This document shows positions 1-51,101 of a DNA stretch of 64,000 nt, piece after piece. The position numbers and the translations under genes were made by a program. The notes beneath the pieces were generated by a model. That model did no database searches, had not been told where the DNA came from, and saw only the letters and a program-made list of their open reading frames with translations. Source of the stretch: Cafeteria roenbergensis (lineage: Eukaryota; Sar; Bigyra; Bicosoecida; Cafeteriaceae); NCBI GenBank assembly GCA_008330645.1, contig VLTN01000032.1:186001-250000 (forward strand), written 5' to 3'. Each line of letters opens with the position of its first letter. Position 1 is the stretch's first letter.

Positions 1-3000
1 GAAGGGCGACAACGGCCTCCTCGGCGGCGGTGGGCGGGCGGGGCTCGAGGTACACGTGGATGACGTCGGTGGAGATGAGGCCGCACGTCTTGCGCAGCTT
101 CTGCACGCGGTTGGTGATCTCGCGGGCGAGGCCGCTGCGGCGCATCTCGTCCGTGATCTCGCAGTCCACGATGACAAGGAGCGAGGCGTCGCCAGCGGGG
201 TCCGCCACGAACTCGAAGCCGTAGCGAGCAGCGTCGCCGGTGAACGAGCGGGTCAGGTTCAGGCCCTCGGTGAGAACCTCACCGGCCAGGGTGGCCTTTC
301 CTGTGGCCATGAACGCCTCCACGTCCTCCGGGGTCATGGCGGCCGCCGCTTCGGCGACGGGCTTGAAGCGCTTGCCCAGGGCCTTGCCGAGCACCTTGGG
401 GTCGGCCACGACGGAGGTGGAGCACCAGGCCGCGACGTCGGTGGAGAACTCGACCTTCTCGCAGTTGAGCTCGGAGCGGATGTACTCCTCCATCACCTTG
501 GCGGCATCCACAACGGCTGCGTCGCGGTGCACCAGACGCACCGACTGCACAGGCATGCGCATGTTGATGGCGCGCGCGTCGCGCACCAGCCGGCCGCCAG
601 TGATGGCCGCGCGCATCGTGTCCACGGCGCGCTCGATGCCTTCGTCCAGGAGGCTCGCGTCCGGCTCCGGGAGGGACAGGAAGTGCACCGACTTGGCAGA
701 GCCCCACACGTCCTGGGACTCCTCGCTGTTGCGCGCGGGATGGAAGGCGCGCATGCGCTGGTAGAGCCACTCCGAGAAGAAGGGCGTGAAGGGCGACATG
801 AGGCGGGTGACGAGGCCGAGCACCTCATAGAGGCAAGAGAGGGAGTTGCGCGCCTCGTCCTCGCCCTCGCGGCCGGTGAGGCGCGCGCGGTTCAAGCGCA
901 CGTACCAGTTGGTGAGGTCGTCGATGAAGGCCACGAGGTGGGGCACCACCGTGTACAGGCGGTACTCCTCCATCTCCCCGCGGACGTACTGCGCCAGGCG
1001 CTGGGCGGCTGCCATCACCCAGCGGTCCATCAGGTTGGCGGAGGCCGCGGCGGCGGCGGCGCTCGGCTCGAAGGGGGTGCCCGACTCATCGAGGTGAGCG
1101 GCGGCGGTGGCCAGGAAGCGGAAGGTGTTGTACCAGGGGAGCATGGTCTGGCGCAGGGTCTGCATCACGCCGGTGTCGGAGAACTTGAGCGGCTCGGCGC
1201 GCACCACGGGGCTGTTGATGAGGTAGAGGCGCAGGGCGTCGGCGCCGTGGCTCTCAACCACCTTGAGCGGGTCGGGGTAGTTCTTCTTGCTCTTGGACAT
1301 CTTCTGCCCGTCTTCGGCGAGCACCAGCCCGTTGACGATGACGTTCTTGAAGGCGGGCTTGTCGAAGAGCGCCGTCGACAGCACCATGAGGGTGTAGAAC
1401 CAGCCGCGGGTCTGGTCCAGGCCCTCGGCGATGAAGTCTGCGGGGAAGCGATGCTCCTCGAAGTCCTTGCAGGCCGCCTCGCCCTCGAAGGGGTAGTGCA
1501 CCTGGGCGTAAGGCATGGAGCCGGACTCGAACCAGCAGTCGAACACCTCCTCCACGCGCTTGAGCGTGCCGCGGCCCTCCTTGGACGGGATCTCGATGCG
1601 GTCCACGTGCTCGCGGTGCAGGTCGGTGAGCGAGGCCTCGTCGATGCCCGCAAGCTCTGCGAGCTGCTTCCTGGAGTGGATGCAGACCATCTCCTCGCCG
1701 TCGTCCGAGGCCCAGATGGGCAGCGGGGTGCCCCAGTACCGGCTCCGGGAGACGCACCAGTCGCGCGCCGAGGCGAGCCAGTTGTGGAAGCGGCGCTCGC
1801 TCACAAACTCGGGCACCCACTTGCTCGCGGCGTTGTTAGCGGTGAGCCGGTCGCGCATGCCCTCGACCGCCACGAACCAGCTGGGAACGGCGCGGTACAT
1901 GATGGGGGTGCCGGAGCGCCAGCAGTACGGGTAGCGATGCACGATGGAGCTCTTCTGGATCATGCGGCCCGAGGCCTTGAGCGCTGCCATGATGGGCTCG
2001 TCGGCGTCCTTGAAGTACATGCCCGCAAAGTCGGGCACCTTGGCGGTGAACACGCCGCTCTCGTCGATGGGCAGGGGCAGGGCCTGGCCCTTGGCCACCA
2101 CGCCCTTGGCGAGGCAGACGCGGAAATCGTCCTCACCAAAGGCGGGCGCCTGGTGAACGACGCCAGTGCCAGCGTCGTCCCCGACGTACTCGTCGGCGAG
2201 CACGCGGAAGCCGGTCTCGCCGTACTCCTCCTTGAAGAAGGGGAAGAGGGGCTCGTAGCGAGTGCCCTCGAGCTCCGCGCCGGTCATCTCGGCGACCACG
2301 TCAAACTCGCCGCCCTTGTACCCCTTCTTGTTCATGGCCGGGAAGAGCTGCGAGAGGCGCGCCTCCGCGAGAACGTACACCTTGCCGGTGCTGGTGCGCA
2401 CGCGCACGTACTTGAGCGCGGGGTGGACGCAGAGCGCCACGTTGGACGGGAGCGTCCAGGGCGTGGTGGTCCACGCCACAAACTCGGCGCCGTCGGCGTC
2501 ATCCACGATGGGGAAGGAAACCACCACGGAGGGGTCCTTGATGCCGTCGCGGTAGCTGTCGGCCACCTCGAAGTTGGAGAGCGGGGTGGTGCAGCCGGTG
2601 GAGTACGGCATGACCTTGAACCCGCGGTAGACGAGGTCCTTCTTCCACAGCTGGGAGAACACCCACCAGACGCTCTCCATGTACCACGGCTCCATGGTCT
2701 TGTAGTCGTTGCGGAAGTCGATCCAGCGGCCCATGCGCGTCACCACGTTCTCCCACTCAGTGCAGTAGCGCGTGACGATGCCGCGGCAGAGGGCGTTGTA
2801 CTTGTCAATGCCCAGCTCGAGCACCTGCTGCTTGGAGCTGATGCCGTGCTGTTTGTCGATCTCAAACTCGATGGGCAGGCCGTGGCAATCCCAGCCGAAG
2901 CGCCGGCTCACGTAGTGCCCGGTCTGCGTGGCGTAGCGCGTCACCACGTCCTTGATGGTGCCCGCGAGGATGTGGCCGTAGTGCGGCAGCCCTGCGAGAC

Positions 3001-3451
3001 AATGGAACACGAGCAGGCAAGCGCACAGGCCATTGCGCAGCAGCCGCTAGGACCGGGGCCCCTCGCGGGGGACGGGGTTGGAGCGCTGCGCAAGACTCCC
3101 CCTCAAACCCGGTGCGGGCAGGCTCAGTCCGTCCGCCGAGCGCGGCGAGGCGCGGGAGTGTGCGTTCCGAGCAGAGGGCGTTCGGTCCGCTCGCGCGTGG
3201 AGATTCTCACCAGTCGCGAACGGGGGGCCGTCGTAAAAGGTGAACTCGGGGCGGTCCTTGGAGTACTCCAGCTGCTTCTTGAACGCATCCACGGCCTTCC
3301 AGAGGTCCAGGACCTCGCGCTCGGACGCGGGAAAGTCGAAGCGATCGGGGAGCTCTGCCAAGACGGACGCGAGGCCGTCGAGGCGCGCAATGCTCTCGGG
3401 GAGATCGCCCGCGACCGGGGCGGCCCCGCTAGCTGCGGCTGCGGCTGCCAT
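1..3451 (-). CDS. IARS1: Isoleucyl-tRNA synthetase, cytosolic type (3' end off window)
   Basis: Charges tRNA-Ile with isoleucine in the cytosol (class I aminoacyl-tRNA synthetase). Two exons are seen: 3451-3211 and 2991-1. The intron (GTGAGA...CGCAG) splits the codon before the catalytic signature. Exon 1 carries the eukaryotic N-terminus ending [10 protein letters not shown]; exon 2 opens with [10 protein letters not shown] (the HIGH-type motif) and FGWDCHGLP. The second signature, [12 protein letters not shown], lies near 1260-1310, and the anticodon-binding region runs to the left edge ([14 protein letters not shown]). About 1077 residues are visible; cytosolic family members have roughly 1070-1260, so a C-terminal piece may be missing. 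I chose the Met at 3451 (MAAAAAASG) because its context GCAATGGC matches other starts here. The frame is open to 3607, but that extra stretch is Arg/Ser-rich and unlike the family. Confidence 0.93.
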
Positions 3452-4183: not shown

Positions 4184-6261
4184 ATGGGTGCTGGCGGCCG
4201 CTCGCGAGCTTGCGGCGGAAAATCGAAGGAGGCGGACGAGGTCACCAAGGACCACCGCTACCTCGCCAAGGCGTACTCCATCTCCATTGTCGACTGGTGA
4301 GCCCGCGAGCGGCTGCCCCCAGGAGCGCTGCGCAGTGGGGCTAGGGACAGCACCGAGCGATGGGGGAGTGCGCCCCGGGGCGGGGTCGCTGAGAGAGGCC
4401 AACGCTCGCCCTGATGCGCTTTCCCTGCCGATTGCTTCTTTTTGTCGTCGCCGCCATGGTGGCGACAAGCGCTTCCGCGCGCTCGGCTCCCCGCCACCGC
4501 CGCTGGGGACCGTGTCGCCCCAACCCCCGTTGCAATCACGCACCCCCGCTCCGGATTCTCTCGTTCGAGGCGCAGGTGGCACGTGTCCAAGGTCTACGCG
4601 GGCTGGGTGGCCCTCGGCCTGATCGGCGTCTCAGTTGCAGTTCTTTGGCAGCCGCTCGTCGTCCCCGCCTACGCCGAGGTGGCCAACATGACCAAGGTGC
4701 GCGCGGCGCTCAACGAGCCGCTCGTCTGGACGATGCTCGTGCTCGTGCTTATGTCCATCTACACGCTCACGCCGTCCGGCAAGGCCCCCGTCTACATGAT
4801 GGATTTCGCGGTCTTCGAGCCTCCCGCGGATTGGGCGTGCTCCCACGACGACCTCATCGAGATCTGCAGGTGAGCACCCACGGGTCGCCGCGGGTCGCAG
4901 CTCGCCACGCTGGCAAGCAAGCCCCGCCACCCTGAGCAACCGGTGCTTGCTCGCGAGTCCCCGCTGCCGTTGGAACCCGCAGTCGCCACGGCAAGTTTTC
5001 CGAGGAGACCCTTGCGTTCATGCGCCGCATCCTGGATCGATCCAAGACCGGCCAGGCCACGCACTGGCCGCCTGGCACCGGTGAGCCCAATGCCCCGGCC
5101 CGCGGCGCGTAGCGAGCCGCCGAAGCCGCTGAGCGACTCCTTGCCGCTCCTCCGCCGCGCGACTCCTTGCCGCTCCTCCCTCCGCCGGCTCCCGCAGTGC
5201 GCCTGCTTCGTGGCGAGGCCACGGCCGACTGCAGCATGGAAGCTGCCCGGGAAGAGGCCCGCACTGTGATCTTCAGCTGCGTGGACGACGCTCTCAAACG
5301 CACCGGCCTGAAGCCCCGCGACATCGACTTCCTCATCGTCAACTGCTCCCTCTTTGTGCCCACGCCGTCCCTGGCAGCCATGGTGCACTCCCACTACAAG
5401 CTGCGCGCGGACTGCCGGACGTACAACCTGGGCGGCATGGGCTGCTCCGCCTCGGTGATCGGCGTCGACCTTGCCCGCCAGCTGCTGGAGGCCTCGCCCG
5501 GTTCCCGGGCGCTCATCGTGTCCACGGAGAACCTGACCCAGCAGCTCTACCTCGGCGGAGACCGATCCATGCTGGTGCAGAACATGCTCTTCCGCTGCGG
5601 CGGGGCCGCGGCCGTGCTCTCCAGCCGCGCCACCGACGGCTTCCGCGCCAAGTACAAGCTCCTTCTCACCAACCGGACGCAGACGAGCGACGACGCCGCC
5701 CTCAGCTGCGTCTGGCAGTGCGAGGACGACAGCGGCAAGCGCGGGATCCGCCTCAGCAAGGAGGTCCCCGCCATCGCCGGGCGCGCCCTCAAGCACAACC
5801 TCACCGCGATCGGCCCCTACGTTCTCCCCCTCCGCGAGCAGTTTGCAGTGCTCGTGCGCGAAGCGCTGCGCTGGGCTCACACCCGCGCAACGGCGCTCGG
5901 CGAGACCTTGGCCATCCCCGCGCTTGCCGATCTGGCCCGGCCCAAGCCCTACATCCCCAACTTCCGCAAGGGGGTCGACCACTTCTGCATCCACGCCGGC
6001 GGGCGCGCGGTCATCGACGGTGTGGCGGAGAACCTCAAGCTGTCCAGGGCCGACACCGCGCCTTCACGCGCCTGCCTGTGGCACTACGGCAACACGTCGT
6101 CGTCGTCCATCTGGTACGAGCTCCGCTTTTGCGAGCAGGAGTCCGAGGCGTGGGTTGCCGAGGACGCTGGCGCGCCGGTCCGGGCGGGCGACCGGGTGCT
6201 GCAGGTGGCGTTCGGCTCGGGGTTCAAGTGCAACTCCGCAGTCTGGCTTCGAATGCGCTGA
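4184..6261 (+). CDS. KCS: FAE1-type 3-ketoacyl-CoA synthase
   Basis: Condensing enzyme of very-long-chain fatty acid elongation in the ER; joins malonyl-CoA to a fatty acyl-CoA. Four exons: 4184-4296, 4576-4869, 4983-5080 and 5198-6261, giving 522 residues. All introns start GTGAGC and end CAG, and the phases join correctly. Two hydrophobic N-terminal segments (WVALGLIGVSVAVLW and the WTMLVLVLMSIYTL stretch) match the membrane anchors of plant KCS. The FAE1 core follows: AREEARTVIFSCVDDAL, NCSLFVPTPSLAAM and LGGMGCSAS. The catalytic triad is visible as Cys251 (GMGCSA), His434 (CIHAGG) and Asn467 (HYGNTSSSS). Length is typical of plant enzymes (about 500-530). This is the plant/algal/alveolate-type elongase, distinct from the ELO family; substrate chain length cannot be read from sequence. 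Confidence 0.95.
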
Positions 6262-6588: not shown

Positions 6589-9500
6589 TCAGCTCCAGTG
6601 CTTGAGCTGGTGAGCCCAGTCGTCAAGCTGGACCGTCAGCATGGAGGCATTCTTCTGTGCCTCGTCGGCGAAGAGGGCCGCCACGTCGGCGTCCGTCCGG
6701 TCTGAGTGGAACTGGTCGCGAAGGAACATGATGTCCTTCTTGGACCTCAGCTCCGGGATGCCGCAAGAGGTCATGAGAGAGAAGAGGGTGATCAGCAGGT
6801 CACGGTTGCCCTGCCTCCTCAGCACAGCCAGGGCCTGGCCGGCCAGCGTGAGGAACCTGCGGTACAGCTCCGAGCGCTCGCCTCCGAGGGTGTGGACCAT
6901 TTGGACGGTGAACTTGAACGAAGCGCGCTCGCGGCGCATGCCCAGCTTGTACTTCCAGTTGCCGAGGAAGTGGCCGAAATCGATGTGGAACAGGCGGCCG
7001 TCCTTGGTCACCATGAGGTTGTCGGCGTGCCTGTCGCCGATGCCCATGAGGAACGTGGCGACGCAGCTGCCCGCGCAAGATCTCGCAAACCGCTCCAGCA
7101 TTGCCTTGTAGGCCTGCCCGTCCACCAGCCCAATGTCCGCCATGGGCTCGGCCCTGGCCATGGCGATGACGGCCTCGGAGGGGCCCTGCTCCAGAAGGCC
7201 TGCGGCGCTCCCGGAGCTCATCACAGACGCGTCCGACCCGCGCCGCTGGCGCCGCCTCGCCTCCTCGGCAGCCAGCACGCCCGCGCCGAAGCGGCGCGCC
7301 GACATCGTGGGCGACCGGCTCATGAGAGCGGCGGTCGGCGAAGGCGGCGCCACGGCGCCCGAGAGCGGGGGAGAGCCGAGGCCCACGGCGGCGCTGTTGG
7401 CCCGGCCGCGCGGGTCCAACACACGGTGGCGCAAGCTGGACGACGATGCCACACCAGTCACGCCGCCGGTCGACCCCGACCGCGAGATGCGGCCGAGGGG
7501 GTGCCCGCCCGGCGGGCTGTCCCCTGCAGCGGTGGGAGAGTACCCGCCGCCGGCGCGCGGCGTCCCGCCCCAGGACCCGGACGGCGAGTCCGCCGCGGCA
7601 GAGTCGTCGTCGTCGCTGCCCTCGAACGCGGCGCTGCCGTCTCCGTCCGTGGCCGCGCCGAGCTGCTCCCTCTCCTCCGCGCGCCGTGCCTCCTGCTGCA
7701 GCCAGGTCGTGATCATGTGCGGGCGGAACACGTTGTTGGCGGCCCTGGCACCGCGGCGAGTCCCCTTCTTCATCTCCTTCGCCTCGCCCGCCAGGATGTT
7801 GCCGATGGTGTCCGAGTTCAGCACCATCTCCAGCATGCCAAGCTCGTCGCCAGTGCTGACGCATTCGTAGGGCAGCATGCACATGTCCAGGCCCTCGCCA
7901 AGCCACATGGCATTCATCACTCGCAGAACTTGCAGCGTCAGCTGGTCCTGGCGAAGGTCGTCGCCGTTCTTGTACATCACGGTGAAGTTGTCGCCGCCGG
8001 TGGCAGACTCGAAGACCAGCCACAGCGGGAGCTTCTTGGAGGACATGACGCGGCACTTTTCCGGGATGACGCCCTTGCCGATGAAGGACGGCTTGATAGG
8101 CAGCTGGAAGCTGTCCGGCCATACGATCTTGGCCAGTGCCTCGCGGGTGGCGCGCAGCCGCTGGCGCTTGCCCTTGGCCTTCTTGGCCAGGACGCTGACG
8201 GCGTAGAGGCGCTCCAACACGTACTGCTGGTGACCCAGCGCCACGCGGTGCTCGCCGCAGTGCTTGAGGTAGATGTCCAGCAGCACGCCGAAGCGGTCTC
8301 GCACGTGCGGCTGGTGCGTCTCCGCCTGCAGGTACCAGAAGAAGACGTGGCCGACCAGCGGCGGGTTGAGGAGCGACCGGCGCATCAAGAACCGGGCCAG
8401 GGCCGAGTCGTGGAACGGCTCGTTCTTTAGCACCTGGACCAGCTGCAGCATGTACAGCACCAGGTCCTGGTCGGGAAGGGTCTCGAGGCACTGCACGGCG
8501 TACGCGCGGACCTTGGGGTCGGGGAACTGGCCGTCGAGGAGCTGGAGGGCCTCGAGCGGGGACGGCACCGCCCACAGGCGCAGCAGGCGGTGCATGCGCT
8601 GCACTGCATCGCGGCGGCTCCAGTCCACAGAGCGCAGCACCTTGGAGAGGGCGGCGGGGTGGTGGCTGAGCAGGTTCCGGTTTCGCCAGAGCACCTGCCT
8701 CTCGGTCTCGTCCAGGTCGGCGAGCGGGTCGCGCGCAAGCAGCCTCTGCACAGAGGCCGGCAGCGGAGTTGACGGGTCGGGCCTGGGCTCCAGCGCAATG
8801 TCCTCGGCCCCGTGGTCCGTGAAGATGATGGGCTTGCTCCAGCTTGGCAGCTCGACCTCGAGGATCGGGGGGTCCGTGGCGTACCTGTTGTCCAGCGAGG
8901 GCACCATCGCCCCGGGGCAGTCGCCTGGCCACAGCGGGAGGCGCACGGTGCCGCGCCGCATGCACTTGTCGTACCCGAAGAGGTGCATTCCCGCCCACGC
9001 GACGGGCGTTTTCCCCTCGAGCTTCACTGTGAACACGATGCGAGTGGCGCGGGGCAGGTTGCTGATGGAGATGTTCGTGCCCAGGCGCGCGAGCGTCTTG
9101 GAGCAGTAGGGGATGCACCCTGGAGGGAACCTTGCGGCAGTGACGCCGATTGCCGCCGCGTCGTCTGCTTCTTCCTTCTCGAGGGCCTTCTGGGCCTCCT
9201 CGGCGCGGCTCTTGGCAGCCTGACGACGCGCCCCGCTCGAGGCTCCCGCGGCGGGGGACGCTGGCGAGGAGGTTGCTGTCGGCAGGCTGTGCCGATCTCC
9301 CCCGGACAGAGGGGAGTTGGACCGCGAAGGCGCCTCGACGAGCGGCAGCAGCGCCGGCGACCCGGGAATCATGCTCAGCCGCGCGCGGGAGGCCGCGCGG
9401 GACAGGCTCCGGTGGCTCGAGGTGCCCACGCTCGCGACGCCGGCAGTGTTGGAGCGGGGCCGCCCCATCCCGCCCCGCATGCTCATGGCACGGGAGAGGG

Positions 9501-12500
9501 ACCCTCTGCGCCGCGGCGAGTCCGTGGGCGGACGAGGGACGGGGCTCCGCCCGCCGACGTCGTCCGTGATGTCGTCCTCGTCGTCCTCGTCCTCGTCCTC
9601 GTCGTCAAAGTCGGCAAAGCCGCTCGACTCGGCGCGCGCCCGACCCGCGAGGTCCTCCTCCTCGAGGCGGGAGAGTGCCTCGCCGATGCGCTCGTGGCGG
9701 GCGGTGATCCACTCCTTGTCCTTCTTCACGCGCAGCGTCGAGGAGGAGCTCACAGTGTCGATGAGGTCCTCTCCGTGGAAAAGCTGAAGGCACACCGTCA
9801 CGTGCCGGCCGCTCACCATTCGCGCCATGGCGCCCCGCGCAGGAAGCGGAAGGCCACTGATCCCCTTCACATTGCACGCGAAGGTTTGCGACCCTGCGCG
9901 CCACGTGGCTGTGAAGCGGTGGCTATTGTCCAGCGCGACCTCCTGCTCAAGCGCCACCAGCGTCGCCCCCAGCTGTCGGCCCATGCCCTCGAGCAGCTCC
10001 TGGTCTCGGGCGCTGAAGGGCACGACGACGCGCCCGGGCTCGGCGACTGCCGGCGCGGCGCGCTCCAGGCCCCGGGCGCCGTCCCCGCCCTCGCCACCAT
10101 CACCGCGCTCGGCGCGGCCGCCACGCTTGTGGGGATCCCGATCGCGGCTGGCAAAGTCTGCCGCGAGGCTGTCTGCGAGCGTTGGCCGCTGGGAGGCCTG
10201 GCGAGATGCGGCGAAGCCGTAGGCCGACTGCGGGAGGGTAAGCCCGCCCGACGGGCCGTGGGCCTCTGCCCCCGCCCCAGAAAAGGCGCTGCCACGGCCG
10301 GAGCCGCCGGCCGCGGCTTCGGCGTAGGCGCTTGCCGCGGCCTGGGCGGCTTCGGGCGCCTCTTCAACGGACACGGTCTTGTTGAGCACCTGCAGAACGG
10401 CAATGACCTTGGGGCTGTCCGGGCGCGGCTTGATGGGAAGGCACAGCATGGACTGCGTGCGGAAGCCGGTGAGCCGGTCGAACGACTGGTCGAAGCGCCG
10501 GTCGCCGTACGCGTCGGGGATGTTCTCCGTGCGCCCGCTTGACACCACATCGCCGGCAATGCCCGAGATGGGCAGGCGCTGGGCCTTGGCGTCGGAGGAC
10601 ACCTTGAGGACCATCTCTCCTCGCTCCTGGTCCACAATGAAGAGGCCGACGCGCTGGCAGCCGAAGATGTTGTAGCAGGTGTGCACGGTTCGCTCGATGA
10701 TGTCGTCGACGGAGAGCTCCGGAACGAAGCAGGACATTACCGCCTCGAGCTCCTTGTGGGCGCTCTTGAGCACCATGCTGTTGAACTGGCGGGTGTGGTT
10801 CTCGAGCATGCGGGCCGCGGGCTCGCGGTGCGCGGACATGTAGCGGCGCAGCTTGTCGCTGAGCCACGGGCGCGCGGTGTGGAGGAGCAGGTCCTCAAAG
10901 GGCTCCAGACCGATGGAAATGCAGGTGGACGCCTCGGCAGCCACGCACGTTGCCGCGCGCGCGTCGCCAGTGAACAGGGAGCGCTCTCCGAACCAGTCCC
11001 CCAGCCCGTAGTAGGCGACTGCGGCGCCGAAGGGCCCGCGCGCCGCGTGGCGGTCCCCGCCAGGGTGGGCCGCGCTGATTGTGTCGTCGCTGCCTTCTGT
11101 CGACGCGTCCCCAAGGCCCACCGCCGCCGCTGCTGCCGCCGCCGTGGCAACCGCCGCGTCCTGCTGCGAGTACGCTACCACCGACCCGCTAAAGATGATG
11201 AACATGCGGTCGCCAGCGTCGCCTTGCCTCGAGATGACGGCGCCGGCCGCAAACTGCTCCACGTCGATCCGGCCGCACAGCGACACAAAGTCGTCCTCCG
11301 TCATCTGGTGGAGCAAGGGGACCGACCGGAGGAAGTCGCGGACCTCCGAGCTGCTGGGGAGCTCCGCCGACCCTGCTTCGCCAGCAGCGCCCGAAGCGTG
11401 GTGCGGAGCCCACCCGGAGGCGCTCGGGACCATCCGCTTGGACGGGCTTCCCATGTACCCTGCCGGCGAGGGCCAGCCAGAGGTGCCGGATGCCCGGCGC
11501 GGTTCCTTGTCGAAGTGCTGGTGAATCCCTCCGCCAGCGGCCTGCTGGCCCCCGGAGCGCGGCGAGGGAATTGGCACCATTGGCCCCATCGGGGTGGGGG
11601 CTAGCATGGGGCTGGCGTCGGCTACGTTCTTCGGAGCTCGGACTCGCAAGGCCATCGTGCCCCTGCCCGCCGGGGCAGCAGGAGGGGCCTGCGCGCCCAG
11701 GCGAGGAGAGCCCGAGAAGGAGGCCGGGGACTCGCTCCGCTCGCTCCGGGAGCGCGAGAGCTTGTGGTCGTGGTGCATTGGCGCAGAGCCGTGGAGGCTC
11801 GCTGGGGAGGGCGAGCCGCGGCGCGCTGCGCCCGGGTCAGCTCGGGGGAAGGCGGCTGGCCGCGAGGCGCTGGGCGCTGCGGGGTTGGGCGTGAGCCGCA
11901 TGCCGCCCCTGCGGCCCAGGTTCGCGGCGACGGACATCGAGCGGCTCGGCGGCGGGGGTGCCCGGGCCCGGCCGGAGCCGCGGGCTGCCGCGGCGGCAGG
12001 TGCCGCGGTGGCCGCGTACTGGGCCGCGGGGCTGAGGTCCGAGGCGACCGGAGACGAGTCCACCGCAGCCACGCGCTGGCCGTGCGGGCCGGCCTGGGGG
12101 AGGGACCGCGACGCGGCGCGAGCTGGGGCCGGGCCTGAGGCCGGGCCTCGGGCGGGGCTCGGCTCCGCTTGCGCATCCAGGCCGCTGCGCATCGGGCTTG
12201 GCACCTGTCCGTCGCCAAAGTCGTCGCCCTCCAGCTCCGCGTCGGGAGACGGATGAGCGGCGGGGGCTGGGGAAGAGGCGCGCGAGGCGATCGCGCTCAT
12301 CAGCGGGGACTCGGTGGTGAATGCCGCCGGCCCCCCCAGGGCGCGGTCACCGCCCGGGGTGGCCGCGGGCGAGGTGCGCGCGGCAGGATCCCCTCCGCTG
12401 TGCGCTGTGGCGCCTTGCTGGGTGGCGCTGCTGCCGGCCCGGGGGGAGGCCCGCTTGAAGGCCGCGACGTTCGCGGGCGACGGCGCCTTGACGAGGCTGT

Positions 12501-13800
12501 GGGCCCGTTCCCGGGTTGAGGGGGTCGCCAGCTCGGGGTGGATCTCTGCGCCTCCGCCGTCGCGGACCTGCACGTCGATGCGGTGCCTCCGCTGGCCGCC
12601 GCGGCTGCTGCGTGGCTGCACTGCAACCTGGAGGGGGTTCTCGGCCCCGCCGCTGTGGTGAACGCCCTGGGGGCCGCTTTTGCCGGTGCGGCCGACGCCG
12701 CCAGCGACGCCTGCCCCGCCGCCGCTTGTTCGCAGGCTGCGAGCGTCGGCGCGCGCTGCGGCGCAGGCGTCCTTGGAGTCGGCGAGCTCTCGCACGGTGC
12801 GCCTCAGGCTGTCCTTGGCCGCCTGGAGGGCTTCCGCCTGCGCGTCGCGCTCGGCCTCCGCTGCCGCTTTGCCCTCCTGGGCCTGCGCCGCGACGCGCTG
12901 CAGCTCCGCGTTGCGCGACTCCGCGCGCAGCAGCTGCGAGCGCAGGCGCTTCAGCTCCTCGGCGACGCTGCGGTCCCCTGGGACGGACCCGGCCGCCTGG
13001 GCCGCCTCCTTCAGCTGCCGGCGGAGCCTCTCGTTCTCCGCCTCTGCTACCAGGCAGCGGTGCGTCATGTCCAGCATGGCTTGCTCGCCAGGGCCGCTGT
13101 CCTCGGCCGCTGCTCTTGCCGCCACGTGCAGCTGCGCCGACTGCAGGGCCAGCTTGGCCTTCTCCAGCAGGGCCTGCTTGCTTGCGTTGTCCGCCCTCAG
13201 GCGCCGAACCTCGCCCATGAGGGCGCGAATGGTCGCGGGCGACTCGCGGGCGGACGAGGATGCCGAGCGGCTGGAGCCGTTTTGCGAGCGAGGGCGCGAG
13301 TCCGGCGCTGCTGACATTGCCGCCTCGATCGAGCGCGCCGTGGACCCGGGCAATTCGTCTCGGGGCGAGGGGCCGCCAGCCCCTGCGCCGTTGGCGGCCG
13401 GGGGAGCGCCGCCTTGCGAAGCAGTTGCCGACGGAACCTGCGGCTCTTGGTAGCCATTCCGCGAGGGGCTCCCCTCCGCCGACTGCGCCTGCCCACGTGG
13501 CGGGTCGGGGTGCCCCACCGGGCTGAAGGGCGCGGGCGGCTGACCAGCCTCGCGCGGGCCGCCCTTGGAGACTTGGCGCGCGGCGCGCAGCTCGTCCGCC
13601 GACACCTCAAGCCCAGAGGCCATCAAGCGTGCGAGGGCAGTGCCTTGCGCCATGGGACCAGCACTTGCCGGCTCAGCGGCCACCCGGGGCGGCGGGCTGG
13701 CGGTGCTCGCTGCCGCGTGCGGCCGTGGCCCGGCCGGCAGTCTGGCTGGCGCGCGAACGCTTGTCCGGCAGAGGCGAGGCGGCGCCATTGCGACGAGCAA
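6589..13800 (-). CDS. PI3-kinase with N-terminal cyclic-nucleotide-binding and GAF domains
   Basis: Single open exon, 2403 residues. Order: disordered/coiled N-terminus (1-800); cyclic-nucleotide-binding domain (about 810-980) with a phosphate-binding cassette GERSLFTGDARAAT; GAF domain (about 1028-1140); PI3K C2 domain split by a disordered acidic insert (about 1303-1655); helical PIK domain (about 1680-1840); kinase domain (about 1897-2403). Kinase motifs are intact: NGDDLRQDQLTLQ, GIGDRHADNL and HIDFGHFLGNWKYK, with a basic activation loop GMRRERASF. The NGDDLRQD form and basic loop look like class I/II PI3K rather than Vps34. I see no Ras-binding or p85-binding domain. A disordered insert of roughly 200 residues sits inside the kinase domain (about 2003-2213). 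Inferred role: phosphoinositide 3-kinase gated by cAMP/cGMP. The start could lie at a later Met, such as MAQGTALARLM. Confidence 0.9.
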   Translation of the reverse strand: MLVAMAPPRLCRTSVRAPARLPAGPRPHAAASTASPPPRVAAEPASAGPMAQGTALARLMASGLEVSADELRAARQVSKGGPREAGQPPAPFSPVGHPDPPRGQAQSAEGSPSRNGYQEPQVPSATASQGGAPPAANGAGAGGPSPRDELPGSTARSIEAAMSAAPDSRPRSQNGSSRSASSSARESPATIRALMGEVRRLRADNASKQALLEKAKLALQSAQLHVAARAAAEDSGPGEQAMLDMTHRCLVAEAENERLRRQLKEAAQAAGSVPGDRSVAEELKRLRSQLLRAESRNAELQRVAAQAQEGKAAAEAERDAQAEALQAAKDSLRRTVRELADSKDACAAARADARSLRTSGGGAGVAGGVGRTGKSGPQGVHHSGGAENPLQVAVQPRSSRGGQRRHRIDVQVRDGGGAEIHPELATPSTRERAHSLVKAPSPANVAAFKRASPRAGSSATQQGATAHSGGDPAARTSPAATPGGDRALGGPAAFTTESPLMSAIASRASSPAPAAHPSPDAELEGDDFGDGQVPSPMRSGLDAQAEPSPARGPASGPAPARAASRSLPQAGPHGQRVAAVDSSPVASDLSPAAQYAATAAPAAAAARGSGRARAPPPPSRSMSVAANLGRRGGMRLTPNPAAPSASRPAAFPRADPGAARRGSPSPASLHGSAPMHHDHKLSRSRSERSESPASFSGSPRLGAQAPPAAPAGRGTMALRVRAPKNVADASPMLAPTPMGPMVPIPSPRSGGQQAAGGGIHQHFDKEPRRASGTSGWPSPAGYMGSPSKRMVPSASGWAPHHASGAAGEAGSAELPSSSEVRDFLRSVPLLHQMTEDDFVSLCGRIDVEQFAAGAVISRQGDAGDRMFIIFSGSVVAYSQQDAAVATAAAAAAAVGLGDASTEGSDDTISAAHPGGDRHAARGPFGAAVAYYGLGDWFGERSLFTGDARAATCVAAEASTCISIGLEPFEDLLLHTARPWLSDKLRRYMSAHREPAARMLENHTRQFNSMVLKSAHKELEAVMSCFVPELSVDDIIERTVHTCYNIFGCQRVGLFIVDQERGEMVLKVSSDAKAQRLPISGIAGDVVSSGRTENIPDAYGDRRFDQSFDRLTGFRTQSMLCLPIKPRPDSPKVIAVLQVLNKTVSVEEAPEAAQAAASAYAEAAAGGSGRGSAFSGAGAEAHGPSGGLTLPQSAYGFAASRQASQRPTLADSLAADFASRDRDPHKRGGRAERGDGGEGGDGARGLERAAPAVAEPGRVVVPFSARDQELLEGMGRQLGATLVALEQEVALDNSHRFTATWRAGSQTFACNVKGISGLPLPARGAMARMVSGRHVTVCLQLFHGEDLIDTVSSSSTLRVKKDKEWITARHERIGEALSRLEEEDLAGRARAESSGFADFDDEDEDEDDEDDITDDVGGRSPVPRPPTDSPRRRGSLSRAMSMRGGMGRPRSNTAGVASVGTSSHRSLSRAASRARLSMIPGSPALLPLVEAPSRSNSPLSGGDRHSLPTATSSPASPAAGASSGARRQAAKSRAEEAQKALEKEEADDAAAIGVTAARFPPGCIPYCSKTLARLGTNISISNLPRATRIVFTVKLEGKTPVAWAGMHLFGYDKCMRRGTVRLPLWPGDCPGAMVPSLDNRYATDPPILEVELPSWSKPIIFTDHGAEDIALEPRPDPSTPLPASVQRLLARDPLADLDETERQVLWRNRNLLSHHPAALSKVLRSVDWSRRDAVQRMHRLLRLWAVPSPLEALQLLDGQFPDPKVRAYAVQCLETLPDQDLVLYMLQLVQVLKNEPFHDSALARFLMRRSLLNPPLVGHVFFWYLQAETHQPHVRDRFGVLLDIYLKHCGEHRVALGHQQYVLERLYAVSVLAKKAKGKRQRLRATREALAKIVWPDSFQLPIKPSFIGKGVIPEKCRVMSSKKLPLWLVFESATGGDNFTVMYKNGDDLRQDQLTLQVLRVMNAMWLGEGLDMCMLPYECVSTGDELGMLEMVLNSDTIGNILAGEAKEMKKGTRRGARAANNVFRPHMITTWLQQEARRAEEREQLGAATDGDGSAAFEGSDDDDSAAADSPSGSWGGTPRAGGGYSPTAAGDSPPGGHPLGRISRSGSTGGVTGVASSSSLRHRVLDPRGRANSAAVGLGSPPLSGAVAPPSPTAALMSRSPTMSARRFGAGVLAAEEARRRQRRGSDASVMSSGSAAGLLEQGPSEAVIAMARAEPMADIGLVDGQAYKAMLERFARSCAGSCVATFLMGIGDRHADNLMVTKDGRLFHIDFGHFLGNWKYKLGMRRERASFKFTVQMVHTLGGERSELYRRFLTLAGQALAVLRRQGNRDLLITLFSLMTSCGIPELRSKKDIMFLRDQFHSDRTDADVAALFADEAQKNASMLTVQLDDWAHQLKHWS

Positions 13801-23873: not shown

Positions 23874-25733
23874 TCACTCGCCCTCTCGCTGCAGACGCCC
23901 GGCGGCGTGAGCAAGGAAACCCTCGGGCAGAAACACGGGCGACGGCTCCTCGCGTGACGGGGTCAGAGCGAGAGCTACAACCCACTCCGAGCCCGCAAGC
24001 TTGCTCCCAAAGCGCAGACTCTCTCCAAGCGAGGCGGCCCACGCGCACTTGCCGCTCGCCGCAGCGCTGCTCGCCTCCGGGGCGCCACCTGCGGCACAAC
24101 GTCGCGCCGTTTCCAGCCAGGGGTCTGCCACCACGCGCCACGTGTCCTCGGCGACCCGTGCGCACGCAGCGGGCATCGCGAGCGCGCCGAGGGCGGGTCC
24201 CTCGTTGACCTCAAGGAGGCGCAGGCACAACCTGTCTGCCTCCCACTCTGGAAGGAAGTCGACGCCAAACAGCTCAAAGCACCCTGGTTGCGGGAGCCAT
24301 TCGGTGCCAAAGCCGGTCGCCGACGCTCGCGCGAACAAGGCGGCCACTGCCTCCAAAACCAGCCCCAGCAGCCGTTGCTCAGCCCCCGACGGCTCGGCCT
24401 CGTCCTCTGACGCAGCCTCCTCTGCCCTGGCGGCGATCGGAGGCACCGATGCGGCACTGGAGCCATCAGCCACATGCGGTGCGCCCTTTCCGTTGCCGCA
24501 GCAGCCCCACGGAACCGGGCCAACTTGGTAGTCCCCGCCTGCTGCGCCTGTGGCGTGCGTCCCGGGCCGAAATTGCCACAAGGCCAGCTCCCCGCCGTCC
24601 ATTTTGGCACCGAGCTGCTGCAGCGTCATCGTGTGCACAGCGGCGTCGTACGCTGCGCTGCTGCGCTGGACGCTGTGGTTGCTGATGTGTCGCTCCGCAC
24701 TGCCCCAGTCTGAGGCCCGCCATGCGCCGGTTGCACAGTGGATGAGGCACTCCGAGTGCACCAGCACAGTTGCGCGCCCAACGGCCAAAACGTTCGCCCG
24801 GATCGAGAACTTCACCGGCCCTTCTCCGGCCCGCCCCACTGCCCCGGCCCCCTCGGGGCAAGCCCCGTGCCCGACGAGAGCCGGATCGGAGAAGCATCGC
24901 TGGAGCACCCACTCGCTCACCGGGGCCTCGCGAGGACTGCCCCGCGGCTCGGCGAGAGAAGGCCTCGCCCCGCGAGCAGCTGCTTTGGCCGGGCAAGCCC
25001 CGGCCCCGCTGCCGGAATCTCTGTCTTCGTCGGCAGCATCGGCGCCGGCCGCATCGGCGCCGGCCGCATCGGCACCCTCCGTCCCTGGACGGACGGGACC
25101 GCCGACGGCGTCGGCGGCAGCGAGCAGCGCTCCGAGCGCGTCTCCGTGCGCTGCGTTCGCAAACGACACCGCCAAAGCGTTGTTCGTGCGCGCGTGCTTG
25201 ACCACGACGGCCGACGCCCCCGCCATCGACGCCGATCCCAGCCAGTCGGCCACTGCCGAGCTCCAGTGCTCCCTGCAGCCGGGGACGGCGAGCGCCCAGC
25301 CTCTGCACAACCCCATGGCGCGCAGTTGCGAGTAGACCCAGGACCATGCCACCCCGCTGCAGCAGGTCCTGGGCACGGCTCGAGTGCCGGCCCCACTGAG
25401 GGCGAGAGGGGGCGCCGCGACAGCCCACAAGCCCGAGGTCTCGGGAGGATGCGCACCGCCAGCCGACGCGTCCCCGGGGGTGGGACACTCGTCGCTGCAC
25501 TGCTGCCCCAGCACTGTGAGCAGGCGGTCCTTGGTCGTGAGTCCGCGGTGCACGAAAAACGCGGACACAAGTCGCCGCCGGCCAAACGCCTCATCCCATC
25601 GCAACTTGCCGAACGACCCAAACTGGACCAAAACCGACGCGTCGGAGCACAACGAAGGCCTTAGCCGCGACCGCCCGCTCGCAATCAAGGCCCTGCGGGT
25701 CACAGGCATGCTGCTGTCGGCAGCGAACGCCAT
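23874..25733 (-). CDS. Tubulin-tyrosine-ligase-like protein (TTL/PBY1-type)
   Basis: 619 residues, single exon. TTL-family ATP-grasp ligases add amino acids to tubulin tails or other proteins. Visible family features: an N-terminal LVSAFFVHRGLTTKDRL (like VSAYIRKALIRK), an ATP-grasp core (EWVLQRCFSDPAL, then VKFSIRANVLAVG, ERHISNHSVQ), and a C-terminal LFGVDFLPEWEA ... RLLEVNEGPALG, which carries the metal-binding Glu and Asn. Two disordered Ala/Gly-rich inserts interrupt the domain, including an AGADA repeat around 25020-25080. The usual lysine-containing strand is diverged (VVVKHARTNN). It resembles fungal PBY1 and TTLL12-like members more than tubulin polyglutamylases. The start at 25733 (GCCATGGCG) is the first Met with family-like sequence after it. 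Confidence 0.78.
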   Translation of the reverse strand: MAFAADSSMPVTRRALIASGRSRLRPSLCSDASVLVQFGSFGKLRWDEAFGRRRLVSAFFVHRGLTTKDRLLTVLGQQCSDECPTPGDASAGGAHPPETSGLWAVAAPPLALSGAGTRAVPRTCCSGVAWSWVYSQLRAMGLCRGWALAVPGCREHWSSAVADWLGSASMAGASAVVVKHARTNNALAVSFANAAHGDALGALLAAADAVGGPVRPGTEGADAAGADAAGADAADEDRDSGSGAGACPAKAAARGARPSLAEPRGSPREAPVSEWVLQRCFSDPALVGHGACPEGAGAVGRAGEGPVKFSIRANVLAVGRATVLVHSECLIHCATGAWRASDWGSAERHISNHSVQRSSAAYDAAVHTMTLQQLGAKMDGGELALWQFRPGTHATGAAGGDYQVGPVPWGCCGNGKGAPHVADGSSAASVPPIAARAEEAASEDEAEPSGAEQRLLGLVLEAVAALFARASATGFGTEWLPQPGCFELFGVDFLPEWEADRLCLRLLEVNEGPALGALAMPAACARVAEDTWRVVADPWLETARRCAAGGAPEASSAAASGKCAWAASLGESLRFGSKLAGSEWVVALALTPSREEPSPVFLPEGFLAHAAGRLQREGE

Positions 25734-26021
25734 GGCAGCGGCGGTGGGAGGACTGCTTGCACGCCCTTGGATTCGGTGCCTCCCACGGCCGAGCAGCCCC
25801 GGCCGCGCGCTGGCTGCCTGGGGGGCGGTCTGCTCCCAGCCCGGGTGCCGCGGAGGCGCCACCCTCCGGATCAAGGCGCGCGCCCTCCAGAGTTGAGCGC
25901 AAGCCTCGGCTGGAACTCTGGCAGAGCTCCGCGCGCAAGACTGTGGTTGCACGCGAGCAGAGTCAGAGCAGCCCCGCGAGCTAAGCACTCTCCACCCCGA
26001 GAAAGAACAGACCCGCGAACA

Positions 26022-27086
26022 ATGGCCGCTGCTAACACCGCTGCTTCCCACAAGTTTGGCGACTGGGACACCTTCGCCGAGAACTGGCCCATCGAGGGCG
26101 GCTCCGACCTGCGCAAGATGCTCGGCGGCGCCGTGCCCCTGCCGGTGAGGGCGCGAGCGCGCGCTTTTCCAGCGAGCAGCCATCGGAACATCAGGATCAC
26201 CAGGCCCGACGCTCGCCCCCCTGCCGCCCCGCCTGCCCTGGAGCCACGCCGCCTCCCCACCGAATGCCTGTGCACCCGCCCTCGCAGACCACGGAGGACG
26301 CCATCAGCGCGGTCCGCCTCAGCGCCACCATCAACGCTTCCGGTGAGAACGCCGACAACCGCAAACCCTGCCAAAAAGATCCGCCGCCGCGTTGCTTCAC
26401 CTGGGCGCGAGGGCAGCCTGGCCGCCGCCCAGTGCCGCGGCGCCGCCCCTGTGACACCGACCTGGCGTGGGATCGTGGCGGGCGGGCGGGTGGGCCGCGT
26501 GCTGGACGGGGCGGGCACGGGCAGGCCGGATACGTGGCGGCGCTGGCTCGCGCGAGCCGCGCCATGGCCCGTTCACCCGCACCGCCCGCCCGCCCGCCCG
26601 CCGGGCCCAGGCCCTCTCCCGGCCATGCCACAGGGGCCATATAGTGTTGGCACTCCCTGGCCGTGCGCGCCTTCGTCCTGCTGGTGGGGCTCCCGCGCGG
26701 CAGCCGTTGACAGCACACGTGCTCCAAGAAAATGCGTTTCTGTTGTTCCCTGACCCCCCTCCCCTTCCGCCCACGCAGCCGACGACGACCACAAGATGAC
26801 CTTCTCGTCCATGTTCACCGGCGCCGAGGTGAAGGACAAGGCCGGCAACTACGTGTGCTCGTCCGCCAAGGAGCTCAAGCTCTGGCTCGACCGCACCCTC
26901 GGCAAGGGCAAGCACATGGCCAACGCCGGCAAGGCCGCCGGCAAGCGCGGCATCATCTACTGGAGCGGCCCCTTCGGCGGCTACTTCGAGCTTTGGGACA
27001 CCACTGACGATGGCTTCAAGGGCGGTGTCAAGGGCGCAGTGGACCACTGGGACGACTGCACCGACTGCTGCCTCTGGGAGATGTGA
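26022..27086 (+). CDS. Tae4-like (T6SS amidase-effector fold) small protein, eukaryotic gene with two introns
   Basis: Three exons: 26022-26144, 26288-26342 and 26779-27086, with GTGAGG and GTGAGA donors and CAG acceptors; phases join to 161 residues. From memory, the profile parallels bacterial type VI secretion amidase effector 4 (about 160 residues): an N-terminal helical part ending DLRKMLGGAV, then AVRLSATINAS (like the IRMSYVLNATG helix), ELKLWLDRTLGKGKH, GKRGIIYW, GGYFELWD and a short Cys-rich end. The residues bacterial members use for catalysis do not look retained, so I infer a non-enzymatic or altered role. There is no signal peptide, unlike known domesticated effector genes in other eukaryotes that are secreted. 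Introns, host-like GC and the start context ACAATGG show that it is a long-resident nuclear gene. The call rests on motif order recalled by eye, not a search. Confidence 0.62.
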
Positions 27087-33993: not shown

Positions 33994-34226
33994 TCACGAC
34001 GACGACTTCTTCGACGAGCGCCGCGTCTTCTTCTTGCGAGCGGGGCCCAGGCCGGCCGCGTCGATGCCGTACGCTGCCAGACGCTTGACGTCCATGGTGG
34101 CACCAGTGGGCAGCTCAACCTCCTTCCTGGGCGCGGGCTCGCGCGCCTTCTTGGACGCCTTGGGCTCCTTGGGCTCCTTGGCACGCTTCTGCTTCTTCGC
34201 CTTGGGCTCCTTGCTAGCCTTGGCCG

Positions 34227-34267
<41 letters not shown>

Positions 34268-36540
34268 GCGGCAGCCGCAGCTGACGACGAGGACGAGGGC
34301 GGGGCAGCGTCCGCCGCCGTCGAGTCATCCGCGTCGTCGCCGTCCTCCTCGCGCGCACGCTTCCGCCTGGATCCGCGCTTCCGCTTCTTGGGACCCGCCT
34401 CCTCGCCGGTCTTGGCGCTCGCGCTGGGCGCTGCCGCCGCGGGCGTGGGCTCGACGAGGCCCTCCTTCTCGAGGCGGGCGGCGATGCGGCGCCGGAGGGC
34501 CTTGAGCGCCTTGTGCTGCTGGTGCTCGGACACGGTCCACTCGCGCTCGCGGAAGGGCGCCAGCTTCTTCAGGCCCACGTAGGCGTTGAGCTCGTCGTCA
34601 GTGGCGAGAAGGATGTCCTCCGCGGTCAGACCCCAGTCCTGTCCGCCCACCTGCCTGTACTTGAACCGCGTGCGGAGGCCGCCAGCGATGATGTCGTCGA
34701 AGCCCATCTCGTCAGCCGCGGCGTTGGCGGCAGCCTCGATGTCGCCATCGGCGTCGCGCAGCGCAGCGGCGGCCTCGGCCATGAGCCGCCCTCCTGGCTT
34801 GCGGGAGCGGCTTGACTTGCCCTTGCGACCACGGCCGCGGCCAGACGTGGCGCCCTCGCCCTCGCCCTCGCCCTCGCCCTCGGCGTCCGAGCCCTCGGCC
34901 TCGCCCTCGTCGCTGTCCTCGTCGCTGCCCTCCTCCTCGGCAGCGATGGCCTTGGCAGCCGCCTTGAGGGCCTTGCGCTGGGCCTTCTCCTCGGCCTTGT
35001 CCCTGAGAGCCTTGCGCCCCAGGACGCCCTTGTCGTCCAGACCGTCCTCGCCGCCCGCCCACTCCGGCCGCTCGCGCTCCCCCGTCTCCCAACCCTTCGT
35101 CGCCACGTCTGCGTCGCCCGCGCCGTAGTACTCGTCCCCGAAGAGCGCTTGCATCTGCTTGTCGTGGGCATCGGGGTCGAAGTCGCCCTCCAGGTCCACT
35201 GCGCTCGCCAGGCGGGCCAGCGCCACCTCGTCGCCAGCCATGTGCTTGATCGTCTCGAGCCGCCCCTTCATCTCCGCGCGGCGCAGGTTCATCAGCCGGC
35301 GCGCCTCCTCGTCCGCCGCCCGCCGCTCCTCCTCCTTCCGCGCCTTGCGCGCCTCGCGCTGCGCCTTCCGCTTGCTCTCCTGCCGCCGGACGGTGTCCTC
35401 CACCACGCGCGGGTGGCCCGTGATCTTGTCGCCGCCCTCCTCCTCGAAGCGGAAGTTGAACTGACTCTCGAAGGCGTCCTGGGCGTCGAGCGCGTCGGCG
35501 TCCTCGTCGTCGTCCACCTCCTCCATTGCGCGCTTGCGACGGCCGGACGAGGGCTCAGCAGGGGCCTCCCCTCGGGCGGCCTCCATGCCGCGAACCTTTC
35601 CGGTGTCGGCGGCGTCGCGCACAGTGAGCAACGCGCCGTCGTCGCTCTCGTCGTCGCTCCCCTCCTCCCACTTGCGCGTCAGCATGTAAGCCTTCAGGAA
35701 GGCGTCTGCGCCGTCCTGCGGCCGCGCCTTGACGAAGGACGTCGCCGCCTCGCGCTCCTCTTCGGTCAGCGTCGGAACGGACTGGACGAACCCCTCGAAC
35801 TCGCCCGCGTCGCGGGCCAGCTCTGCAGCTGACTTCTTGCGAAGCGACAGGGTCCCTCCCCAGTCGCCGCCCTCCTCCTCCGCAGCGACGGCCACCGCGT
35901 CCGCGCTCTCCCGCACAGCCTCGAGGAAGGCTTGGCGCATGGCCGCCTGCTCCTCGTTGTACACCTTCCGCTTGGCTGCCTCGGACGCTGCTGCAAGGCG
36001 GTTGCCTGTGCCCTCGTCCCCAGAGTCGCTGTCCTCGCCGTCTCCCTTTCCAGTCGGCCTCTCGGGGCCGTCGTCGTCGCCGAAGGCGTCGCTTCGGCCC
36101 TCGCGCACGGCCTTGACGACCTGCTCGCGAATCACGTCCGCGGGCCGTTGGCGGGTGTGCCCCGCCTCATCAACGTCCGGCTTGCCCAGCGCGTCGTCCT
36201 CCTTGAACCATGCCACCCCGTCTTCGTAAACCTTCGGGTCCTTGTTCCGAATGGCCTGAATCACGCGCATAATGCGCATGTCCGTGGCCGGCTCTACGTG
36301 GCCTTCGTCTTCGCTGGATTCGTCGCTGTCGTCATCGTCAGCTGCCACTCCGTCCATGCGCGCAATGCGCCTTTCGGCTTCGTGCAGCATTCCCTGCTCA
36401 CGGGCACGCGCGAGGTCCCGGCGCCGACGGCTGGCATCAAAGTGCTCCGCGAACTGCTTGTTCACGCGCAGCTTGGGGGCTGCCTCATCGTCGCTCTCCC
36501 CCCCAAACAGGTCCTTTGATGCCTTGGACTTGCGAGGCAT
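33994..36540 (-). CDS. KRI1: KRI1 ribosome biogenesis factor
   Basis: Nucleolar protein needed for 40S (small-subunit) ribosome maturation. Single exon, 848 residues. N-terminus [19 protein letters not shown] ... [20 protein letters not shown] matches the family start. The middle contains [25 protein letters not shown] (the conserved Kri1 basic helix) and the segment with EFNFRF-type acidic motif. The C-terminal Kri1 domain reads [53 protein letters not shown]. Two microsatellite-like stretches encode acidic dipeptides: a GEGEG run near 34850-34890 and a GDGDG run near 34225-34265. The tail is Lys-rich ([13 protein letters not shown]), fitting nucleolar targeting. Somewhat longer than yeast Kri1 (591) because of low-complexity inserts. 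Confidence 0.93.
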
Positions 36541-50800: not shown

Positions 50801-51101
50801 TGTCGGCGTCGCTGGCGCCGACGCACAGCTTGCCGTCGCCGATGAAGACCGTCGCAGGCACCGCACCCTCTTCGCGGACCGCAGCCTCGACCGAGCGCGC
50901 CGTGCTCGCGTTCTCGGGGTACGGCATGCCGTGGGAGATGATAGTGGACTCCAGGGCCACCACGGGCTTGCCCTCATGCACGGCCTGGGCGACTTCTTCT
51001 GACACACGCACTCTGCCAGAAGTCAGGCCGCGGGCTTGCGCCCGCGCGGCAGCCGCCGCCGGGCGCGAGACACCTCGGCACAACGCCTTGCTGGCCGCCA
51101 T
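47820..51101 (-). CDS. Fused pseudouridine-5'-phosphate glycosidase and PfkB kinase (PsuG-PsuK)
   Basis: Bifunctional enzyme for pseudouridine breakdown: the kinase half phosphorylates pseudouridine and the glycosidase half splits the C-glycosidic bond to uracil and ribose 5-phosphate. Exons 51101-50603 and 50479-47820; intron GTGAGC...CCGCAG of 123 bases. 1052 residues. PsuG (about 30-340): KPVVALESTIISHGMPYP, FATGGIGGVHRG, ISADLTEL, CAGVKSILDI (the family's adduct-forming lysine). PfkB domain from about 380: GSTLVDVVARR, LHLGGVGRNIAECAARLG, and the catalytic NVTGAGDSLVGG near residue 970. Two inserts split the kinase; the larger (about 670-870) is acidic with STI1-like LxxM-rich helices. 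The N-terminus (MAASKALCRGVSRPAAAAARAQ) looks like a mitochondrial presequence. Upstream frame to 51170 was judged 5' UTR. Confidence 0.92.
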   Translation of the reverse strand: MAASKALCRGVSRPAAAAARAQARGLTSGRVRVSEEVAQAVHEGKPVVALESTIISHGMPYPENASTARSVEAAVREEGAVPATVFIGDGKLCVGASDADIERLAEEGAAGNVGKCSRRDIAVALASGKLGATTVASTMIGAHAAGIEVFATGGIGGVHRGVADSWGERLFPPLPLSLRARAAARAARRAALPSLAVPAPPLPARAADISADLTELSRTPVTVVCAGVKSILDIPKTLEVLETLGVPVAALGQSRFPAFFTRDAGVDAPLRVDTPEELAAVIAAARDMGLDHGFVLGVPNPEPADAGVIDAAITKALADAKAAGVSGKAATPFLLRAVTRATEGASLRSNIALVLNNARTGARLASAVARTGGVAGRQAVHGAAAGHQQRRSFSTSSPAAAAKPWPESASMPAPRDGGNGPMGRIVVLGSTLVDVVARRFKQGKLDEGTSNPGSASLHLGGVGRNIAECAARLGSHVALSSSVGKDSLGQTARLGTEAAGVHILDPFESDSGETASYTALLHGDGEMMSAVADSAVIEAISPEEAESRVRSAMAQDGADGLLVLDAGLTPDAILMACATAAEAAVRGEGVVSHAVPPRSLEALMRSAGIDPSQQAKWDEDTQQMMESLKASVEERKHQFEERSGYTVAADDAPVETPVWDRRGLPVVIEPVSVEKARRVGLPAALAQAAIVTPNAAELHAMADAFREAAAGTAIGELEPPEVQAMQRPGENEFRSPLELNQMLEEAQAAMEDGRGEDVGRLINEMLSNGRDVEGNPLPQREGLGFADMAREAGLDQMSLDDLRKVGAITEDAERYMEAAGMSEMELENAFEDFKRAMADGTLEQHLAASDSEDDGSDGDSDEQRARAMELFAQAGSGDPEEGHDTVEDEEMVNLGGGMGAGVPGQSAAGPELGEHMNPQLLGAAQVVLAAMCNPAVEMTGVGLVEGRKHVLVTLGPSGVLWVSRRPAASLEELMAVCNHDFLTVAAMDGLDFRFIRAAEVNPMELVNVTGAGDSLVGGLTAALQAGYPMAQAIYWGMASARLSLKARPAVAPQASSREALVQAVREVCEVNASNDDEALALLDHLSFVLPERA

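Follow-up and report, generated by a model that had tools for sequence, protein, structure and literature searches.

How might a phosphoinositide 3-kinase (PI3K) be controlled when no Ras- or adaptor-binding domain is detected in it? The question is raised by a gene of Cafeteria roenbergensis, here called PI3K-1. Cafeteria is a marine single-celled grazing flagellate. The gene lies in a window of 64,000 nucleotides (C32:186001-250000) of the 36.30-Mb, 167-contig genome, in which the G+C content, taken in 4-kb steps, is 0.61-0.77. Animal class I PI3Ks are driven via Ras, G beta-gamma and adaptors, and their adaptor- and Ras-binding domains precede the C2 domain. The best explanation of the PI3K-1 sequence is a class I-like PI3K in which a cyclic-nucleotide-binding domain (CNB) of the PKA/PKG type and a GAF domain of the phosphodiesterase (PDE)/adenylyl-cyclase type occupy this place. 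That its activity is under direct control of cyclic nucleotides is given a probability of about 0.64.

Reading frame and domain organization

The PI3K-1 frame runs uninterrupted on the minus strand from 13812 to 6589, stop to stop, over 2407 codons. The original prediction had described a single uninterrupted frame, which stands; it gave no strand, and its boundary at 13800 is merely the first TTG in the frame. Translation likely starts at the ATG of codon 9 (13788) or at that of codon 54 (13653), the latter having the better start context by eye. The features, with amino acid (aa) positions, are the following:

6592..13653, minus: PI3K-1 coding frame, counted from the ATG at aa 54
12733..13221, minus: coiled-coil-like stretch, possible dimerisation, aa 198-360 (by eye)
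10777..11355, minus: CNB, aa 820-1012 (Pfam, alignment, model)
11017..11163, minus: low-complexity insert inside the CNB, aa 884-932 (predicted local distance difference test, pLDDT, <50 at model residues 92-105)
10948..10992, minus: phosphate-binding cassette FGERSLFTGDARAAT, aa 941-955, with E943 and R952 (sequence, CNB alignment)
9913..10776, minus: GAF domain, PDE/CyaB type, aa 1013-1300 (Pfam, sequence, model)
10039..10362, minus: insert in the GAF domain, aa 1151-1258, dividing NK from F..D of the NKFDE motif
8833..9906, minus: PI3K C2 domain, aa 1303-1660, with a long insert at aa 1379-1550 (first half and borders by eye)
8245..8754, minus: PI3K helical (PIK) domain, aa 1687-1856 (Pfam PF00613, 186.4 bits)
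6643..8115, minus: PI3K kinase domain, ~aa 1900-2390 (Pfam PF00454, 159.4 bits)

Pfam matches were judged against the curated cut-offs, and all five families that the original prediction had proposed to search for exceed theirs. The cNMP_binding family matches in two stretches (1.6e-13; best at aa 932-976, the other at ~852-885), followed by GAF (5.6e-10, aa 1035-1162), PI3K_C2 (PF00792; 7.5e-7, 29.6 bits, aa 1581-1631), PI3Ka (4.6e-55, aa 1687-1856) and PI3_PI4_kinase (1.9e-46, two stretches, best at aa 2234-2356). The C2 domain could also be aligned to p110beta. The kinase domain carries a low-complexity insert (aa 2011-2220) and the catalytic motifs DDLRQD, GDRHADN and DFGHFLG. The C2-helical-kinase core and its motifs, read earlier from the letters alone, are thus recovered in order, as are the GAF domain and the CNB with its apparently intact cassette, in which both expected residues, the Glu (E943) and the Arg (R952), are present. 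The reported lack of a visible Ras- or adaptor-binding domain also agrees with Pfam, which gives no match to Ras-binding or p85-binding domains in PI3K-1 at E <= 1. Elsewhere in the genome, the Ras-binding domain PF00794 has no match either, in a search run without a positive control.

The catalytic core

Judged by its sequence, the core is class I-like. The C2, PIK and kinase domains follow each other in that order, and a PDB search with the whole protein gives p110beta as the best match (5.8e-114), then gamma, alpha and delta. The matches lie in the C-terminal half, and the best 60 of 177 are all class I catalytic subunits. The class I activation loop contains a basic K-x-K ... RER stretch. 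The loop of PI3K-1, GNWKYKLGMRRERASF, resembles that of p110beta, GNFKSKFGIKRERVPF, and the basic stretch reads NWKYKLGMRRER in PI3K-1 and NFKSKFGIKRER in p110beta. Class I enzymes convert phosphatidylinositol bisphosphate (PIP2) into phosphatidylinositol trisphosphate (PIP3), a reaction that PI3K-1 may share.

Class II enzymes carry a PX and a second C2 domain C-terminal to the kinase. PI3K-1 ends soon after its kinase domain and Pfam shows neither, class II having been weighed by domain layout only, while the loop was compared with p110beta and a Vps34-like gene. A class III assignment does not fit: the loop differs from that of the separate Vps34-like gene on contig C16 (DPKPLPPKVKL), and PI3K-1, unlike the minimal C2-PIK-kinase proteins of class III, carries CNB and GAF domains. 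A Ras-binding domain has been described in class I and class II catalytic subunits (PMC4617754), and the Tetrahymena class I enzymes are arranged as Ras-binding domain, C2, PIK and kinase (PMC3823935), as far as these sources were available.

The two putative sensor domains

The CNB of PI3K-1 was modelled with a confident CNB fold, a beta-roll of the PKA/PKG type. From the cassette Arg onward, the alignment reads RAA in PI3K-1 and RTA in PKG1. A Thr directly after this Arg is a mark of cGMP-selective CNBs, such as CNB-B of PKG, and is not found in PI3K-1. Among the 23 aligned CNBs of the genome, the column holds Thr in two and Ala in nine. Because the cassette reads RAA, cyclic AMP (cAMP) is slightly favoured over cyclic GMP (cGMP) as the putative ligand.

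Beyond the original prediction, the GAF domain resembles the cyclic-nucleotide-binding PDE/CyaB type. Its nearest sequence relatives are the GAF domains of cyclic nucleotide monophosphate (cNMP) PDEs or cyclases. A search with a nine-GAF profile placed CyaB2 and PDEs first, the HD-GYP protein 4mcw ninth and other kinds of GAF at 50 bits or below. Four of the five positions of the NKFDE signature are kept (N1144, K1145, F1266 and D1270), around the insert. The domain was modelled with confidence, and its C-terminal helix (aa 1268-1299) ends at about aa 1299, where C2 starts. Sixteen bacterial GAF domains, obtained by a profile scan of genome contigs, were used solely for deepening the GAF alignment; in viral contigs, a profile scan gave no relatives of this GAF.

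Related PI3Ks in the genome

PI3Ka matches lie at four places of the genome: PI3K-1, contig C49, the Vps34-like gene on C16, and C7. On C49, a 2250-aa frame (C49:27301-34053; L043:1802-8554; minus strand) contains a WW domain, a CNB (57.0 bits), C2, PIK and kinase. The CNB-to-kinase architecture proposed from a single frame therefore recurs in a second gene. In their three best blocks from PIK and kinase, the two proteins show 48, 54 and 50% identity, and common blocks score 224 and 190 bits for C49, compared with 77 and 69 bits at best for the Vps34-like protein. The C49 cassette is FGERALLTHEKRAASC; the stretch FGER..CVAA is identical at 13 of 19 positions, whereas identity is 25/55 in the CNB before it and 6/34 after it. 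When 24 CNBs of the genome were placed in a tree, with the inserts removed from both PI3K CNBs, these two came out as sisters (95/93). The simplest reading is a single CNB-PI3K fusion that predated the duplication. A profile scan with the paralogue kinase alignment gave no relatives in viral contigs. A GAF domain is not claimed for the C49 protein, since profile comparison failed and RLRDLAVSPVLNADGSVVVGLVALLNTS has a faint likeness by eye only. A second WW-like stretch was also noted by eye at its N-terminus.

The C7 frame (C7:358683-372095; L048, L049) encodes 4470 aa with a weak PI3K C2, PH, PIK and kinase. We know of no described enzyme in which a PH domain separates C2 from PIK. Its kinase is class I-like, with p110beta as best PDB match and the loop GNTKFQFGIQRERSAF; a shared CNB layout was considered for this protein and rejected, neither a CNB nor a GAF having been found in it. 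A CNB is thus present in two of the three class I-like PI3Ks of the genome, and a recognisable GAF in one.

Proposed mechanism and alternatives

In PKG, EPAC and PDEs, nucleotide binding reshapes the C-terminal helices of the CNB and closes the GAF domain. By analogy, cAMP (perhaps cGMP) would occupy the CNB, the GAF domain or both of PI3K-1. The C-terminal helix of the CNB, which in the models continues into the N-terminal helix of the GAF domain, and the GAF C-terminal helix leading directly into C2 would then move. This movement would lift an inhibition of the C2-helical-kinase core or carry the core to the membrane, so that the output of PIP3, or of another 3-phosphoinositide, would be proportional to the cyclic nucleotide. 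The coiled coil may hold the enzyme as a dimer. Because the GAF helix ends at the start of C2, the signal would enter the core where animal enzymes take Ras and adaptors.

The genome gives 15 matches to cyclase catalytic domains, 15 to PDE catalytic domains and two to the PTEN C2 domain (one above cut-off), these figures being exon-by-exon matches and not gene numbers. On account of these matches, makers and breakers of cyclic nucleotides and a possible PIP3 phosphatase seem to be present. On contig C20, a PTEN C2-like and a PDE catalytic match lie ~3 kb apart on the minus strand (C20:400128-400289 and 403466-404149), either in neighbouring genes or in a single one.

Several observations weigh against direct control by cyclic nucleotides. 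Long low-complexity inserts are found in both sensor domains and in the kinase. The E of the NKFDE signature is replaced by Q, a replacement also found in one of the 16 bacterial relatives (L068), and, in the part of the source available, single changes of NKFDE residues to alanine abolished or weakened binding (PMC11977230). The GAF domains of a cyclic di-GMP PDE and of PtsP resemble the GAF model about as closely as cNMP GAFs do, and the fold comparison did not separate GAF domains by ligand. The alignments given to AlphaFold consisted of real CNBs or GAFs, which biases the models toward the fold found. In the C49 paralogue, the GAF region is recognised neither by Pfam nor by the PDB search nor by profile comparison (probability 0.2%); the GAF half of the wiring therefore appears not to be general even within this genome. 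Neither CNB nor GAF was detected in the class I-like C7 protein, so the wiring appears not to be obligatory here.

It is possible, if unlikely, that the CNB and GAF domains bind cyclic nucleotides and set location, dimerisation or partners, leaving the catalytic rate unchanged. The coiled-coil-like stretch before the CNB and the WW domain of the paralogue resemble assembly parts, and long inserts and linkers could leave the core uncoupled from the sensors. However, the modelled GAF helix enters C2 directly, which is the geometry of a coupled sensor, and a helical linker joins CNB and GAF in both models, with low confidence there in the CNB model. We give little credence to the idea that the sensors are relics or bind another ligand, the enzyme being regulated in ordinary ways by the membrane, a G protein or phosphorylation. 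It would account for the unrecognisable GAF of the paralogue, for the interruption of both sensor domains by inserts, and for the loss of one or both cassette residues in seven of the 23 aligned CNBs. Yet within the CNB it is the cassette that is best conserved between the paralogues, the six key residues of the two domains are all in place, and both models are confident.

A gene-model artefact, either two adjacent genes or a frame reading through introns, is very improbable. Long open frames arise easily here, several other frames holding them too, and the part of the source available reports means of 1.67-1.89 introns per gene for Cafeteria genomes (PMC6972860). The inserts interrupt the CNB, GAF, C2 and kinase domains. 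Because their G+C content at third codon positions (GC3) is 0.81-0.91 and the donors GTGAGT and GTAAGT are present nowhere in the frame, they look coding, with the limit that GC3 does not exceed its first-position counterpart, GC1, in the inserts of the CNB and GAF domains. They also contain no in-frame stop. Two weaker GTGAGC sites, at codons 1333 and 1354, lie upstream of the C2 insert, so an intron may cross it; the domain order would be unaffected either way. The stretch from sensors to kinase is free of stops, and a paralogue on another contig has the same order in one frame, which for the one-gene question is a stronger argument than insert composition. Given the Pfam E-values and this second CNB-C2-PIK-kinase gene, we regard a chance origin of the architecture as excluded.

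Direct gating by cyclic nucleotides remains the preferred reading. Its fullest form is evenly balanced in our judgement: a PIP3-producing kinase, gated doubly and directly through CNB and PDE-type GAF, that would detect coincidence or dose and join two second-messenger systems in one polypeptide, with no intermediate protein kinase, Ras or G protein, and that would belong to a duplicated CNB-PI3K family of the lineage.

Comparison with known systems

PI3K-1 shares with the class I enzymes (p110 alpha/beta/gamma/delta) the C2-helical-kinase order, the catalytic motifs, the basic activation loop and the best PDB matches. It differs in the lack of a detected adaptor- or Ras-binding domain, in the CNB and PDE-type GAF before C2 and in its large inserts. 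With the regulatory CNBs of PKG and PKA it has in common the fold and the cassette with Glu and Arg, but its CNB is single, carries an insert of ~50 residues and shares its chain with a lipid kinase rather than a protein kinase. The cNMP GAFs of PDE2/5/6/10 and Anabaena CyaB2 are similar in sequence, fold, NKFDE-type signature and a D..TG.RT stretch; unlike them, the GAF of PI3K-1 is single and not tandem, has an insert of ~110 residues and the E-to-Q change, and would have a PI3K output. The oomycete fusions of G-protein-coupled receptors (GPCR-bigrams, e.g. GPCR-PIPK; PMC6033456, PMC5784254) reflect the same tendency among stramenopiles to join a phosphoinositide kinase to a module that receives signals, although there, in the portions available, a membrane receptor takes the signal and the kinase is a PIP kinase.

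The available main texts of those two papers mention neither PI3K nor cNMP; together with PMC3019232, they contain "cyclic nucleotide" without PI3K. In the main texts available of PMC4617754, PMC3024228 and PMC3823935, "cyclic nucleotide" is absent. Literature searches for a fusion of a PI3K with a cyclic-nucleotide-binding domain found none, mostly with the hyphenated spelling, so that the spaced form could be missed, and neither a CNB nor a PDE-type GAF was found in any PI3K described in the literature searched. The parts of PI3K-1 all come from known families; what is new to us is their combination, together with the wiring proposed here.

Neighbouring genes in the window

The other genes identified are:

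2-3010, minus: class I tRNA synthetase, isoleucyl-like (tRNA-synt_1, Anticodon_1, DUF5915)
5167-6258, plus: FAE1-type 3-ketoacyl-CoA synthase / type III polyketide synthase-like gene
23877-26183, minus: tubulin-tyrosine-ligase-like protein
33997-36540, minus: Kri1-like protein
47823-51170, minus: Indigoidine_A (pseudouridine-phosphate glycosidase-like) and PfkB kinase fusion, which looks like a bifunctional pseudouridine-degrading enzyme
53010-54608, minus: eukaryotic porin
59567-63895, minus: RCC1-repeat protein

Biological significance

To our knowledge, direct binding of cyclic nucleotides by a PI3K is not known in animals. If the proposed control is true, PI3K-1 would represent another evolutionary solution to the control of PIP3, with the cyclic-nucleotide sensors inside the PI3K itself. 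It would give the design of a cAMP-controlled PI3K tool a natural starting point and make the origin of PI3K control testable, namely whether this lineage lost its Ras-binding domain and put other domains in its place. It also raises the question of how chemotaxis, phagocytosis and growth are steered in protists lacking the animal adaptor set.
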